From NCBI RefSeq assembly GCF_002871915.2, contig NZ_CP126958.1, positions 124,001 through 188,000 on the forward strand: a stretch of DNA of 64,000 bases, written 5' to 3'. Shown here piece by piece: positions 8,568 through 27,289 of this stretch. This DNA comes from Aerococcus loyolae (GTDB lineage Bacteria > Bacillota > Bacilli > Lactobacillales > Aerococcaceae). Within the stretch, counting starts at the first letter, position 1, and the number at the start of each line of letters is the position of its first letter. Made by a program: the position numbers and the translations under genes. The notes beneath the pieces are model-generated. The model had not been told where the DNA came from and made no database searches. It worked only from the letters and a program-made list of their open reading frames with translations.

Positions 8568-9947
8568 ATGGCAAAGAAAAAATGGCAAGCGCCAGTTAAG
8601 AAGAATCAAATACTCGATGTCACCATCAGAGACCTGACTTATGAAGGCATGGGGGTGGCCAAGATCGATCGCTACCCCCTCTTCATTCAAAATGCCTTGG
8701 TGGGGGAAGACTGCCAGGTCAAGGTGGTCAAAGTGCTTAAGAAGTTTGCCTTTGCTATTGTTCTCAAGCGCTATAATGACGCAGATAGTCGCGTTCCCCT
8801 CCGTGATGAAAATGGCTTAAGGACGGGGACTATGCCCCTCCAACACATGGCCTATCCTACCCAGCTGGATTTCAAGCGCCAACAGGTGGTTAACAGCTTA
8901 CAAAAACAAGGTCTGCTTGACCAAACCCAAGTCCTAGAAACCATCGGCATGGAAGAGCCTTGGCACTACCGTAATAAGGCTCAAATTCCGATTGGTCAAG
9001 CGGACGGCCAGCTCTATACTGGCTTTTACCGCAAGGGGTCGCATAAATTGGTCCCCATGACCGATTACCAAATTCAACTGCCCGGGATTGACCAGACCCT
9101 ACAAAAAGTAGTGACTATCCTTAACCAGTACCCCATCTCTGCCTATGAAGAAGACAGCCACCAAGGCTTACTCCGTCACTTGATCGTTCGCCAAGGCTAC
9201 TATACCGGGCAAATCATGTTGGTGATTGTGATTAATGGGAATAAGCTTCCTGATGAAGAGGAAATCATCGCAGCACTCAAAGCTGAAATTCCTGACTTAG
9301 TTTCTATTGTGATTAATTCTAACCAGAAAAATACCAATGTTATCATGGGCCAAGACCAACGGGTGGTCTATGGTGAGGACCTTTATGAGGACCGCATGTT
9401 TGACTTGACCTTTCGGATTTCCTCCAAGTCCTTCTTCCAGGTCAATACCAGCCAGGCGGAAAAACTCTACCATCAAGCCCTAAAAGCCGCCGATCTCAAG
9501 GGCGATGAAGTGGTGGTGGACGCTTATTGTGGGATTGGGACCATTTCACTTTGCCTCGCCCAAGTTGCTAAAGAGGTCTACGGGGTCGAAGTCGTTCCTG
9601 ATGCTATTGACCAAGCTCGGGAAAACGCCCAGCTCAATGGCTTGGATAATGTGACCTTCCAAGCGGGTAAAGCAGAAGAAGTCATCCAGGACTGGGTCCA
9701 AGCGGGACTTAAACCCGATGTTGTTGTCGTTGACCCCCCACGCAAGGGGCTAGCGGAAGACTTTATCCAGTCAGTCTTAGAGGTCCAACCAGAAAAAATC
9801 GTCTATGTCTCCTGCAATCCTGCCACTCTAGCCCGTGACTTGGCCAAATTTGTCGACCAGGGTTATCAATTAGGTAAGGTTCAACCCGTAGATATGTTCC
9901 CGCAAACCCACCATGTTGAGGCGATCGTGGGGCTGACGCGGAAATAA
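8568..9947 (+). CDS. 23S rRNA (uracil-C5)-methyltransferase, RlmCD/RumA family (first copy)
   Basis: 459 residues. Residues 10-70 form a TRAM RNA-binding domain (TIRDLTYEGMGVAKID), the middle is the family's central domain, and the C-terminal half is a SAM-dependent Rossmann methyltransferase (VVDAYCGIGTISLCLA). The catalytic region reads VVDPPRKGL then YVSCNPATL with the nucleophilic Cys at about residue 416. The Cys cluster that binds an iron-sulfur centre in E. coli RlmD is not seen, as in other Gram-positive homologues. A TATAAT box (8533-8538) lies upstream. A paralogue sits at 25892-27289, so the two may divide uracil positions. Confidence 0.93.
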   Translation: MAKKKWQAPVKKNQILDVTIRDLTYEGMGVAKIDRYPLFIQNALVGEDCQVKVVKVLKKFAFAIVLKRYNDADSRVPLRDENGLRTGTMPLQHMAYPTQLDFKRQQVVNSLQKQGLLDQTQVLETIGMEEPWHYRNKAQIPIGQADGQLYTGFYRKGSHKLVPMTDYQIQLPGIDQTLQKVVTILNQYPISAYEEDSHQGLLRHLIVRQGYYTGQIMLVIVINGNKLPDEEEIIAALKAEIPDLVSIVINSNQKNTNVIMGQDQRVVYGEDLYEDRMFDLTFRISSKSFFQVNTSQAEKLYHQALKAADLKGDEVVVDAYCGIGTISLCLAQVAKEVYGVEVVPDAIDQARENAQLNGLDNVTFQAGKAEEVIQDWVQAGLKPDVVVVDPPRKGLAEDFIQSVLEVQPEKIVYVSCNPATLARDLAKFVDQGYQLGKVQPVDMFPQTHHVEAIVGLTRK

Positions 9948-22680: not shown

Positions 22681-22786
22681 AGTGAACTTCCTTTCTAAGA
22701 ATCTTATTTACCTTTATTATAACAAGCACAGGATCTGATGCCTAATTTCCGGTCTAGGATGTTTACAGGAAAGAAATCCTATTTGA

Positions 22787-23989
22787 TTAGTCTCTGCTAG
22801 TTGCTTGTTCCTTATTTTGCTTGTGAAAGAGACGGTGAATGGTCAAGATGGCAATAAGATAAATGAGGAGTTGCCCATAGCCCACATAAGCAAAGATTTG
22901 CCAACTTTTTAAATCAATGAGTGATGCGACAAAGCTTCCCAGAGGTGCAAAAATACCGACGATAGTAAAAATGAGAGAGAAAATCCGTCCTAAGAAATTG
23001 GAAGCGACTGAGACCTGCATGTGGGACATGAAACTGACATTAAACATAGAGACGGTTGTGGCAAAAATAGCAAATAAGATTAGTATCATGACTTGATAAT
23101 TTTTGAAGACGTCTAATAAGATTAAGGCGATGGCTCCTGGCAAGAGAAGATGGAAGAAGCCTTGCCCTGCAATTTTCAATTTCATCGTCGCAATAAGCAA
23201 GGCACCTAAAATACTCCCTAGGGATTGGGCAACTAGAATATAGGCATAGATATTAGAAAACTGTGAGAAGGTTGATGTAAAGGGAAGGTAAAAGTTATAG
23301 ACCGCCTCTAAAAAATTAAGGAAAGCGGTAGCGCAGAGAATAATCAAGAGCATCTTATCCCGATAAAGATATAATAAACCCTCCTTTAGACCGGCTAACA
23401 AGGGGAGGGGCTGGTTTTTGATAGTATGCAAAATATAGAAATGATATTCGCAAAAAACCGATACGAAAAAAGATAGGGAATTAATCAGCATGCCATATTT
23501 AAAACCAAATTGCTTAATAACAAAGACAGCGACTAGGGGAGCACCAACGCCGACAATTTCGGCTATGATTTTAGAGAAGGAATTATAGCGATAGATTCCC
23601 TTTCTTGACAAGAGGTCTTTGATGATGGCCTTATAGGAAGGGCCATTAAAACTAAATAGGAGAGCCAGGAGGCCGTTAACGATGACTAGGGCCCAGATAT
23701 TTTGCGGGTCATAAAATAAAAAAAGTAAAAATGTGGCGATAGCGGCAATTAAATCGGTCAGGATTAAGACCTGTTTGCGGTTAGAAAAATCGGCGATGTA
23801 GCCGGCAAAGAGATTAAAGAGCAGACGAATAATGGATTCGCTAGACTGGTAGAGCATCATAAAAAAAGAGGATCGGCTAGCCAACTGAGCGATTAGCAGC
23901 TTATTGGCATAGTCAAAAATGATGTTACCAAAGTTTGTCGTTTGTCCCCGTACCAGCAGAAAAAGTGTATTCTTATGTTCTTTGTTCAT
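22787..23989 (-). CDS. MFS exporter, MefA-like
   Basis: 400 residues with about 12 hydrophobic segments. Motif-A-like loop IADFSNRKQVLI follows helix 2, and the overall layout (LFNLFAGYIADFSNRKQVLILTDL) resembles macrolide-efflux MefA and related drug exporters of the MFS. It starts 86 bp after the XRE-MurA regulator gene on the same strand, so regulator and exporter likely form an operon. The predicted role is export of a toxic compound, possibly one sensed through the MurA-like domain; that link is inference. Confidence 0.8.
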   Translation of the reverse strand: MNKEHKNTLFLLVRGQTTNFGNIIFDYANKLLIAQLASRSSFFMMLYQSSESIIRLLFNLFAGYIADFSNRKQVLILTDLIAAIATFLLFLFYDPQNIWALVIVNGLLALLFSFNGPSYKAIIKDLLSRKGIYRYNSFSKIIAEIVGVGAPLVAVFVIKQFGFKYGMLINSLSFFVSVFCEYHFYILHTIKNQPLPLLAGLKEGLLYLYRDKMLLIILCATAFLNFLEAVYNFYLPFTSTFSQFSNIYAYILVAQSLGSILGALLIATMKLKIAGQGFFHLLLPGAIALILLDVFKNYQVMILILFAIFATTVSMFNVSFMSHMQVSVASNFLGRIFSLIFTIVGIFAPLGSFVASLIDLKSWQIFAYVGYGQLLIYLIAILTIHRLFHKQNKEQATSRD

Positions 23990-24075
23990 GGGATGAGTCC
24001 TCCAAATGAGTATAAAGTGTTGAAAATCTTGCTTATCTTGTGTGACTAGTCCGCCACAAAGATTAAGGCTTTGAT

Positions 24076-25662
24076 CTAAAGTTCATTACATTGAATTTCT
24101 CCTTGGTATCCTAATAGGCTTAAGATGTCTTGTATATTTCCAAAAGCACGTAGAAGCTGGTCAAAATTCAATAAAGTAGCCGACTTAAGCTGGGTTTGGG
24201 TGATTCCCATCAGTATCGCCATGCCAGCGTACATATCTTTTAAATCAAAGATTTGCTCTGATTGGGAATGACTAGGACTTTTTCCTTGGCTTTTTAGGGC
24301 ACCATTTTCCAGCTCCTTGATCAGGATCCCCAGCTTGTTTAATTCAGAAAGATGGCTGGTTCGCTGGCTAAAGACTTCATCGAATAAAATGGCGGGAATA
24401 TTTTTTGAGGCCAAAAATTCCGACAGAATAGGCCCTAGGTCCGTACTGATGAAGGGAGCAGCCCCTAAGGGAAGAAATTCAAAATAATCTAAATCAATGG
24501 GAGCTGTTTTTTGAAATTGTAGGCTATGGTTATTTTCATACATACTAAGACCTAATTTTTGGAAAAACTTTTGATAACTCGCGGGAATATCCTTGGTCCT
24601 TAAGTTATCAAAGAGGATATGGTCGAGTTTATTCCAAAATAAAAGGACATAAGCAACCAACATAGACATATCAGGAGGTAAGTGAATCTCAGTCTCATTC
24701 AGTTCAATAAAGTCCACCTTAGGAATGATGATCTTATCAGGACTGAGATAACAGACCCGGCGATTACTTGCCTGTTGCAGTAGTTGGATCAGATAGCTAA
24801 TGGTTGGGTCTGGAGACAAGCCATTTATCCGGATCTCATTGGGATAAACATAAGCGAGGTTGATCGCGTTAAAGAAGGCGCCGACGCTTTTACTTCCGTC
24901 AGCATAACAATTCAAGCGAATATTCTGATTCAAGCGGTCCTTTTTTTGAGCATAGAAAATTTTTTGACTTGAATCAAAGCGATAGCTTGCTATGGTAGAA
25001 AGAATGTCCAAGTGCAGATCGATGGGACGAAAACAGAAATCATCGCCGCCTGGAAAGCTAAACAGAAGTTCCCGATAACGATAAGTTAACCCGGAAATAA
25101 TGCCGATGCTTGCACGACTGATTTGATTGAGGGAGATAATATCTCGCGGAATATGATGGGAGCGAATATGCAGGGTATCTCCATGTGTAGAAATCTCAGA
25201 CCAGCCATGATATCCCAATTCATATAAGATATTAAGGAAGTCAAAGGCGCGTGGACAGTTTTTAAGGGTTAGGTCATGTTTATTCATAAATAAATGGGAA
25301 AGCAAGAGGTGGATAGCAATCACTCGATCGCCTTCGATCTTTATGTGGAGGGGTTGAGCAGCAGGAAAAGAATGACCAACTTGTTTCTCCAAATGGACTC
25401 GGAAATGTTTGGGAACTTGTCTGGCTTGTATCTTAGTGGGTGATTCCTTGACAGAGGGTTCTGCTTGGTCAAGATGGCTTTCTAAGTCTTCAAAAGAGAT
25501 TTCTAATAATTTGGCATAGGATAGTAAATCGCTTACATTGATTTCCCGAGACCCGTTCTCCCAGTTAGAAATTGCTTGCCGACTAAGTTTTAACTGATGA
25601 GCGACAAATTCTTGGGTAAATCCCATGGCTAGGCGGCGTTGTTTTAAAAAATCACCAAGCAT
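24076..25662 (-). CDS. XRE-family regulator fused to a full-length MurA-like (EPSP synthase fold) domain
   Basis: 528 residues. Residues 1-62 are an XRE helix-turn-helix (LKQRRLAMGFTQEFVAHQ, SRQAISNWENGSR). Residues about 100-525, the size of a whole MurA, align with UDP-GlcNAc enolpyruvyl transferase: SRASIGIISGL (MurA MRAS block), FPGGDDFCFRPIDLHL (MurA PGGCxIGxRPxDLH), KSVGA, then FISTDLGPILS (PTDMQAQ) and FDEVFSQRTSHLSELNKLG (ENRFMHVPELxRMG), ending near DLKDMYAGMAIL. Catalytic sites have drifted: the Cys115 position is Asp207, the Lys22-Asn23 pair reads Arg-Val (113-114), and the Arg397 position is not Arg. Arg212, Asp408 and Arg434 are kept. The domain is therefore probably a ligand sensor for a UDP-sugar, enolpyruvyl compound or fosfomycin-like drug. 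AAAGGAG precedes the ATG. Confidence 0.85.
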   Translation of the reverse strand: MLGDFLKQRRLAMGFTQEFVAHQLKLSRQAISNWENGSREINVSDLLSYAKLLEISFEDLESHLDQAEPSVKESPTKIQARQVPKHFRVHLEKQVGHSFPAAQPLHIKIEGDRVIAIHLLLSHLFMNKHDLTLKNCPRAFDFLNILYELGYHGWSEISTHGDTLHIRSHHIPRDIISLNQISRASIGIISGLTYRYRELLFSFPGGDDFCFRPIDLHLDILSTIASYRFDSSQKIFYAQKKDRLNQNIRLNCYADGSKSVGAFFNAINLAYVYPNEIRINGLSPDPTISYLIQLLQQASNRRVCYLSPDKIIIPKVDFIELNETEIHLPPDMSMLVAYVLLFWNKLDHILFDNLRTKDIPASYQKFFQKLGLSMYENNHSLQFQKTAPIDLDYFEFLPLGAAPFISTDLGPILSEFLASKNIPAILFDEVFSQRTSHLSELNKLGILIKELENGALKSQGKSPSHSQSEQIFDLKDMYAGMAILMGITQTQLKSATLLNFDQLLRAFGNIQDILSLLGYQGEIQCNEL

Positions 25663-25891
25663 AGGCTGAGCTCCTTTCTTTAAATTTGAGTTTTACTATA
25701 CTCCCTTGACTAGGAATTTCAAGAAATTCTTGGCAACGATTCGTGGCTCTAGCCTGCCATTGTAGGGAGTCAGCCAGGCCATTTTAATTAAGAATGAATC
25801 AAGAGCTTGCGCCTGAGTTGAGATTATGCTTTACTAAACAGGATGAATTTTTCAGAGCGATACAAAATGAAGCAATAGAGGGGATTTGCCG

Positions 25892-27289
25892 ATGAAGCAA
25901 CGTTATCCAAGTGAACAATTAGCAGTCGAAGTGACGGGATTATCTGAGAAGGGGCTGGGCCTAGCCCAATATCGTTTTCCTGATACGGAAAGGGGCAAGG
26001 GCAGAAAGCTAAAGCTCCAGATTCCTAAGGCTCTGCCGGGGGATAAGTTATTAGTTACTGTACCCAATGCCAGAGGAAGAAGACGAGCAACGCGGACCTA
26101 TGACCGGATTATTGAACCGGCACCTAGTCGAATCGGAGGCTATGAATTAAATGGTCCTCAAATTGGGGGCGCTCCCCTGCAATACATGAACTATGGCGAC
26201 CAATTGGCTTATAAGCGCGCCCTCACCCAGGGCTTCTTGGCTGACCAGGGCTTTGATCCCAGCTTAGTGGGTGAGGTATGGGGAATGGACGATCCTTACC
26301 ACTACCGCAATAAGCTCGAATTGAGCTTCTCCATTGACGGCGACTTGGGCTTCTTCGTTCAGGGGGACCAGTACCAGATTGTTGATTGGCAGAAGAATAT
26401 TCTGGCCCCAGAAATCTTCATGACCCTAAAAGAAGAAGTTCAAGCCTGGCAAAAGGCCTGGAACTTAGCAGGTTACGAAAAACAGTCTAAGCAAGGTTTG
26501 CTCAGGCAGTTACTCTTGCGCCAAGGCCACCAAAGTGGGGAAGTCATGGTAGCAATTTTCGCCCAAGAAGAATCGGCAGAGCTTGATCAAGGCGTTATTG
26601 AAGATCTGATCCAACGTCTACAGGTTTATCCTGAAATTAAGAGCTTGATGTGGATTAAGAATACCGCCATTGCGGACCGGATGGGGGCTGACAAGGTGGA
26701 AGTCCTGGCTGGCCGTGATTATATTCGTGATGAATTGGCTGGTTTCAATTACCGACTTTACTTCGATACCTTCTTCCAACCTAACCCCCTCCAGGCCCAA
26801 CGGATGATTGATTTAGCCTGTGACTGGGCCGATCTCGACCAAGATAGTCTAGTGATTGACCTTTTCTGTGGGGTAGGTAGCTTTAGTCTGCCTCTGGCTA
26901 AACGGGCCAAGGCCCTAGTGGGGATTGAGATTGTGGAACAGTCGATTGAGTCGGCTAAGCGTAATGCGCGAGATAACGGGATCACTAATGCCCACTTTAT
27001 CGCTCGTGATGCCCGGCACGGTTTGGCTGAAATTGAGGAAGAATGGGGTCAGGCGGACCTGCTCTTACTTGACCCGCCCCGGAATGGTGCCGGTGGGAAA
27101 ATCATGCGTCGGATCGGCCGGATGGGCTTGGAGAAGATTATCTATGTTTCTTGCAACCCCAAGACCCTAGCCGCAGATTTAGTCTGGCTTAGAGACTTCG
27201 GTTATGAGATTATTAAATTCCAATTAATCGATCAATTTCCTCATACTCAGCATGTTGAGTGCGTGGTATTGATTGAAAAGAAAAGCTGA
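25892..27289 (+). CDS. 23S rRNA (uracil-C5)-methyltransferase, RlmCD/RumA family (second copy)
   Basis: 465 residues. An N-terminal TRAM-like domain (VEVTGLSEKGLGLAQYRF) is followed by the central domain and a SAM methyltransferase domain (VIDLFCGVGSFSLPLA). Catalytic motifs are LLLDPPRNGAGG and YVSCNPKTLAADL with Cys at about residue 421. The ATG at 25892 is preferred to a TTG six bases earlier because GAGGGGA then has proper spacing. Compared with the copy at 8568 it has a longer, Arg-rich N-terminal region (RGRRRATRTYDR). Two such genes per genome are common in Gram-positive bacteria; which uracil each modifies is unknown. Confidence 0.9.
   Translation: MKQRYPSEQLAVEVTGLSEKGLGLAQYRFPDTERGKGRKLKLQIPKALPGDKLLVTVPNARGRRRATRTYDRIIEPAPSRIGGYELNGPQIGGAPLQYMNYGDQLAYKRALTQGFLADQGFDPSLVGEVWGMDDPYHYRNKLELSFSIDGDLGFFVQGDQYQIVDWQKNILAPEIFMTLKEEVQAWQKAWNLAGYEKQSKQGLLRQLLLRQGHQSGEVMVAIFAQEESAELDQGVIEDLIQRLQVYPEIKSLMWIKNTAIADRMGADKVEVLAGRDYIRDELAGFNYRLYFDTFFQPNPLQAQRMIDLACDWADLDQDSLVIDLFCGVGSFSLPLAKRAKALVGIEIVEQSIESAKRNARDNGITNAHFIARDARHGLAEIEEEWGQADLLLLDPPRNGAGGKIMRRIGRMGLEKIIYVSCNPKTLAADLVWLRDFGYEIIKFQLIDQFPHTQHVECVVLIEKKS

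Follow-up and report, generated by a model that had tools for sequence, protein, structure and literature searches.

What is the function of a gene that joins a DNA-binding domain to the fold of the enzyme MurA and is followed by an exporter gene? The window analyzed here comprises 64,000 nucleotides of Aerococcus loyolae (contig NZ_CP126958.1, positions 124,001 to 188,000). Its minus strand encodes a protein, here called HTH-EPT, in which an XRE helix-turn-helix (HTH) domain is joined to a complete MurA-type enolpyruvyl-transferase (EPT) fold. A sequence-only reading had proposed a retired MurA that senses the level of a cell-wall precursor or a cell-wall drug, and controls the major facilitator superfamily (MFS) exporter 86 bp downstream and perhaps an isochorismatase. 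We favor a different explanation at a probability of roughly 0.6. HTH-EPT is likely an enzyme-derived autoregulator, similar to BzdR, of a natural-product-type gene cluster, which in the window appears reduced to a pair for sensing and export.

Several approaches agree on the fusion, which the sequence-only reading had recognized as an HTH and a full-length MurA-like domain in one open reading frame. The frame is intact over all 528 residues. Pfam HTH_3 matches residues 6-60 (E 1.2e-13), which identifies a Cro/CI-type helix-turn-helix, and the predicted model has N-terminal helices at residues 2-12, 17-24, 28-35, 43-52 and 57-64. Pfam EPSP_synthase matches residues 107-483. Comparing the predicted structure with MurA, a check proposed earlier, revealed a complete EPT fold. 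The top NCBIfam matches of the EPT part are MurA models, with scores far below the cut-offs of the curated models (TIGR01072, 85.1 bits with a cut-off of 392.7; PRK09369, 93.8 bits with a cut-off of 297), and the top PDB sequence matches of HTH-EPT are MurAs as well. The closest database protein (P0001) is labelled Aerococcus loyolae and differs from the window protein at two residues. Full-length relatives, where named, are labelled helix-turn-helix domain-containing protein or UDP-N-acetylglucosamine transferase.

The family of HTH-EPT is sporadic. At E 1e-50, matches occur in 3 of 284 Streptococcus genomes and in 3 of 395 genomes of the order. A protein search retrieved 19 proteins scoring at least 412 bits, with the next at 44 bits, and a profile search retrieved at least 23 proteins at 384 bits or more, with the next at 86 (among 120 of 225 rows listed); both searches score about 8000 candidates that share most words and may have overlooked members. 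P0122, P0123 and P0124 came from a search that started with free-standing members. In an EPT-domain tree, which carries a long-branch warning, the fusion proteins form a single clade (14 rows, support 95/96). The fusion clade is nested with P0019 (100/100), and P0122, P0123 and P0124 fall outside. P0122 is 99% identical to the protein encoded at locus L012, where the DNA contains no HTH, and P0019, P0123 and P0124 are known from protein records alone. P0014 is listed without an HTH, yet HTH codons are found upstream at its locus (L004). Collections of plasmids, phages and viral contigs contained no close family member. An origin from phages or plasmids was rejected, as plasmid and phage records gave only MurA-like or HTH-only matches below 60% identity and viral contigs gave none. 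A role as a defence system was rejected as well, with PADLOC models matching the HTH alone.

The gene neighborhoods of relatives were examined, as suggested earlier. A scan of genome contigs with the single protein confirmed no locus, and a scan with the alignment recovered five in Streptococcus and Lapidilactobacillus (L001-L005). HTH-EPT is the first gene of a cluster in all five. Two of the loci (L001 and L002) are near-identical over the cluster region, and L002 is partly masked. The cluster encodes an alanyl-tRNA synthetase (AlaRS)-like protein, two ATP-grasp-type proteins, often a GSCFA protein, and an MFS exporter. Functions were assigned to the GSCFA, first ATP-grasp and MFS proteins, and the ATP-grasp protein resembles an L-amino acid ligase (4wd3) and BacD. 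The AlaRS-like protein is identified by its predicted fold, and sequence-profile comparison with PDB gave no support for an AlaRS identity. Plasmids contained no match to the AlaRS-like protein and four weak ATP-grasp matches to the second ATP-grasp protein; neither protein had a confirmed match in viral contigs. The cluster at L012 includes all six gene types, and its free-standing EPT adjoins GSCFA and keeps Cys115. A related cluster at L024 has no EPT, and a LuxR-type regulator gene lies one gene away on the opposite strand. Cluster-bearing genomes also hold separate EPT-family genes, with three further PF00275 places in G550 and, in the other five, frames of 419-454 aa that match the EPT region more weakly; these genes read as probable MurA or AroA.

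The window appears to contain the regulator and exporter of this cluster, with no match to the intervening genes. Among 14 cluster proteins queried against the window, only three MFS proteins gave matches, all at the exporter gene, with identities of 62.6-68.8%. The exporter scores above the cut-off of Pfam MFS_1, and its best NCBIfam model, TIGR00900, is below its own cut-off. A consensus scan of the minus strand found no terminator-like or promoter-like site in the 86-bp gap between HTH-EPT and MFS. The close relative G365 shares a 378-aa protein (73% identity), the isochorismatase (86%) and rlmD (93%; this name and guaA below were assigned by eye). Its slot between isochorismatase and rlmD holds a MazEF pair, one gene each for a GntR-type protein and an ABC-transporter ATPase, and two unscanned genes, with no match to HTH-EPT or MFS. 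Because G365 fills the slot differently and has the isochorismatase in the same place, the slot is variable and the isochorismatase is part of the backbone, a comparison based on this one relative. In G352 and G449, rlmD is found in other surroundings. Control of the isochorismatase, as proposed earlier, is therefore not supported: the gene keeps its place in a relative without HTH-EPT and MFS, and the palindrome described below does not precede it. The window contains two genes for RlmD-like 23S rRNA methyltransferases (8568-9947 and 25886-27289, by eye).

A shared upstream motif is consistent with autoregulation. The palindrome GCAAC-N5-GTTGC starts at -85 to -89 from the start codon of the fusion gene in 5/5 loci tested, representing three genera. 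Three of these loci (L001, L004 and L005) carry the exact motif, the window differs from it at one position and L003 at two. L004 and L005 are close relatives, and L002 has the L001 sequence in this region. At most 7 of 2000 mononucleotide shuffles per 150-bp upstream region match the palindrome equally well. With up to one mismatch, the palindrome occurs twice elsewhere in the window, once in L024 and once in L012, there at an unrelated position. It does not precede the clusters of L012 and L024, which are without HTH-EPT. The recurrent position supports, without proving, the hypothesis that the palindrome is an operator. A promoter-like sequence lies next to it, and similar hexamers were seen by eye at the equivalent place in L001 and L003. 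Promoter-like sites in the region number 11 compared to 9.7 in shuffles, so TTGAAA-16-TATAGT says little by itself. A separate operator for the MFS gene was rejected, as the palindrome, even with one mismatch allowed, is absent from the 86-bp gap. The earlier proposal of an enzyme-derived regulator with an adjacent exporter is supported in part, by the single fusion clade, the common palindrome and the presence of MFS as the sole cluster gene alongside; its DNA binding, like ligand binding and the direction of regulation, is what we infer.

The catalytic sites bear on the present role of the EPT domain. Sites are numbered according to E. coli MurA aligned to the window protein, and residue counts cover 18 rows of the family and 7 of MurA. 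In the window protein, Arg113 stands at Lys22, Val114 at Asn23, Arg183 at Arg91, Asp207 at Cys115, Arg212 at Arg120, Asp408 at Asp305, Arg434 at Arg331, Asp476 at Asp369, Tyr478 at Arg371 and Arg505 at Arg397. It keeps the MurA residues Arg120, Asp305, Asp369 and Arg397 and lacks the Lys22-Asn23 pair. The sequence-only reading had correctly placed Asp207 and the change of this pair, and was mistaken about a change at Arg397. Across the family, Arg91, Arg120, Asp305 and Asp369 are each found in 18/18 rows, Arg331 in 17, Arg397 in 16, Lys22 in 15 (Arg in the window protein, P0002 and P0013) and Arg371 in 15 (Tyr in the window protein and P0002, Cys in P0006). Site 23 is Val or Ile in all 18 family rows and Asn in all 7 MurA rows, and Glu329 is changed in 17/18 rows (Ser432 in the window protein). 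Site 115 is Asp in 13 rows, Cys in 3, Asn in 1 and Glu in 1. Asp115 is a weak sign of a dead enzyme, because 3/7 MurA rows and natural fosfomycin-insensitive enzymes carry Asp (PMC6801904, PMC4062475). Site 160 was dropped as a marker, as it varies among MurA rows. Both Aerococcus rows differ from ten comparison rows, which omit P0006 and P0013, at 10/158 invariant EPT columns including Lys22 and Arg371, a difference not used as evidence. All eight of Lys22, Arg91, Arg120, Asp305, Arg331, Asp369, Arg371 and Arg397 are retained in 14/18 family rows, the window protein not among them. The description as a retired enzyme is thus right only in part.

The alternative that survives best is a bifunctional protein, with the EPT domain still an enzyme using phosphoenolpyruvate (PEP) and an acceptor other than GlcNAc, like NikO with UMP, and the HTH providing autoregulation. 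PutA and NadR are other enzymes that double as regulators. The 14 rows with complete sites, the Asp115 of MurA rows and the free-standing Cys115 enzyme in the L012 cluster would all fit, as would the existence of natural Cys-to-Asp enzymes (PMC6801904). We nonetheless consider this unlikely, as Asn23 is lost in 18/18 rows, two rows carry Asn or Glu at site 115 and both Aerococcus rows lose Arg371 too. Furthermore, MFS is the only other cluster gene in the window and the L024 cluster has no EPT. Sensing of UDP-GlcNAc or a cell-wall drug, as proposed earlier, is more doubtful still. The changes at Asn23 and Glu329 affect GlcNAc-side contacts. The five relatives with known neighbors sit in a biosynthetic-type cluster, and 281/284 Streptococcus genomes are without a match at E 1e-50, unlike what a housekeeping cell-wall sensor would show. 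An intermediate or product of the cluster is a likelier effector than UDP-GlcNAc. A relic of a lost cluster without function in today's Aerococcus would explain the unmatched cluster genes and the replaced Lys22 and Arg371, but is very improbable considering the intact frame, the operator-like site and the identity between the two Aerococcus proteins, which is 92% in the HTH and 83% in the EPT domain compared to 60% in the linker.

We suggest that a BzdR-like autoregulator could have arisen in the following way. The ancestor would have been a free-standing EPT, comparable to NikO, in a small biosynthetic-type cluster with AlaRS-like and ATP-grasp-type proteins and an exporter. Fusion to an XRE domain would then have turned the EPT into the regulator of the cluster. 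The HTH might bind GCAAC-N5-GTTGC at the promoter of HTH-EPT itself, and the old active site might read a cluster intermediate or product. Effector binding would alter transcription of the operon including the exporter. In the Aerococcus of the window, regulator and exporter would remain and most likely sense and export a compound of cluster carriers without making any. The Aerococcus rows suggest that catalytic sites may decay upon cluster loss.

Several observations weigh against this explanation. Sites are lost beyond Aerococcus as well, in P0006 (Cys371, His397) and P0013 (Arg22, Glu115, Gln331, His397), and the intact sites of the 14 rows agree equally with a sensor and an active enzyme. 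The loci that support the palindrome are also those in which it was noticed; it has two mismatches in L003 and is shared exactly by the closely related L004 and L005. In both of these Lapidilactobacillus loci (L004 at 4259, L005 at 9984), the conserved codons that open the HTH lie beside a run of A and in a different frame from the rest of the fusion gene, which may reflect decay, slippage or an internal start. The second ATP-grasp protein has no Pfam match. A remnant of its gene before the MFS start was rejected, as 1.8-5.4% of 120000 random window stretches fit equally well, depending on length. The missing cluster genes could also lie elsewhere in the genome, as the search covers the 64-kb window.

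Table 1. Positions of the fusion gene, its candidate control elements, the exporter and the related loci. Positions without a locus prefix refer to the window.
Feature	Position	Strand	Remark
HTH-EPT, XRE helix-turn-helix and MurA-type EPT fold	24076..25662	-	528 aa
XRE helix-turn-helix domain, residues 1-62	25477..25662	-	Pfam HTH_3 and helices of the predicted model
MurA-type EPT domain, residues 105-525	24088..25350	-	fold and alignment to E. coli MurA
Candidate operator GCCACGAATCGTTGC, one mismatch to GCAAC-N5-GTTGC	25733..25747	-	starts -85 from start codon
Promoter-like TTGAAA-16-TATAGT	25695..25722	-	10 bp downstream of candidate operator; consensus match
MFS exporter, counterpart of the Streptococcus/Lapidilactobacillus cluster exporter	22787..23989	-	identity to cluster MFS; Pfam
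Variable isochorismatase-rlmD stretch	22681-25885; close relative L036:3702-8049		
Biosynthetic-type cluster	L001:10001-17000; L003:9992-16988; L005:10019-16220; L012:302-7431		
More distant clusters (AlaRS-like, ATP-grasp-like proteins, MFS)	L025:3588-11863; L026:4187-12123		

In S. parasanguinis, a zeta-toxin-family gene is located downstream of the cluster (L001:17954-18619), and a GntR-type gene and a guaA-like gene (the latter by eye) are located upstream (L001:7238-9630). This cluster may lie beside a mobile element. An RlmD-like gene adjoins the S. sanguinis cluster (L003:17333-18742, by eye). At the distant cluster of L026, genes for a radical SAM protein and an Rgg-type regulator are present as well.

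If correct, the favored explanation would extend the set of enzymes that became transcription factors by another fold. The transition would be testable in proteins that exist today: a free-standing one with Cys115, fusions that keep the eight sites and fusions that have lost sites. The explanation would also draw attention to the biosynthetic-type cluster that streptococci and Lapidilactobacillus carry, and suggest that regulator and exporter of a neighboring genus may form an immunity pair based on export. More tentatively, and at somewhat less than even odds, a class of transcription factors with a MurA/EPT sensor might govern a compound that streptococci and Lapidilactobacillus make with an AlaRS-like enzyme and with ligases of the ATP-grasp type. 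The Aerococcus regulator and pump would then detect and export a foreign compound, and the family would preserve the steps from free-standing enzyme to fusion to decayed sensor, a natural counterpart of the laboratory reconstruction of BzdR.

Enzyme-derived XRE regulators are a known kind. In agreement with the sequence-only reading, the titles listed in searches of open-licence PMC papers included no described XRE regulator with an EPT/MurA domain, and no such cluster; PMC11641026 is unrelated. HTH-EPT has 16-22% identity to the solved MurAs listed, and differs from MurA by the extra HTH, the replacement of Asn23 in all family rows and Tyr at Arg371 in the window protein. NikO is the UMP enolpyruvyl transferase of nikkomycin biosynthesis, and the sources compared give no HTH for it. 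A NikO-like role in relatives would fit the EPT fold and the cluster setting. The bacilysin cluster combines the ATP-grasp amino-acid ligase BacD with an exporter. The clusters described here share an ATP-grasp protein near BacD and an MFS exporter, and differ by the added AlaRS-like protein and EPT. The closest parallel is BzdR, a regulator that arose when an XRE domain was joined to a shikimate kinase and that responded better once catalysis was lost (PMC3602430). The NCBIfam model PRK08154 for the anaerobic benzoate regulator matches HTH-EPT at residues 2-70 only. Unlike BzdR, HTH-EPT has a sensor of the EPSP_synthase-family EPT/MurA type rather than a shikimate kinase, and is associated with a biosynthesis-export type cluster rather than aromatic catabolism. 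Ligand and DNA binding have been demonstrated for BzdR, and we infer binding for HTH-EPT. Both proteins share the order of an N-terminal XRE domain, a linker and an enzyme-derived C-terminal domain (PMC3602430 for BzdR).
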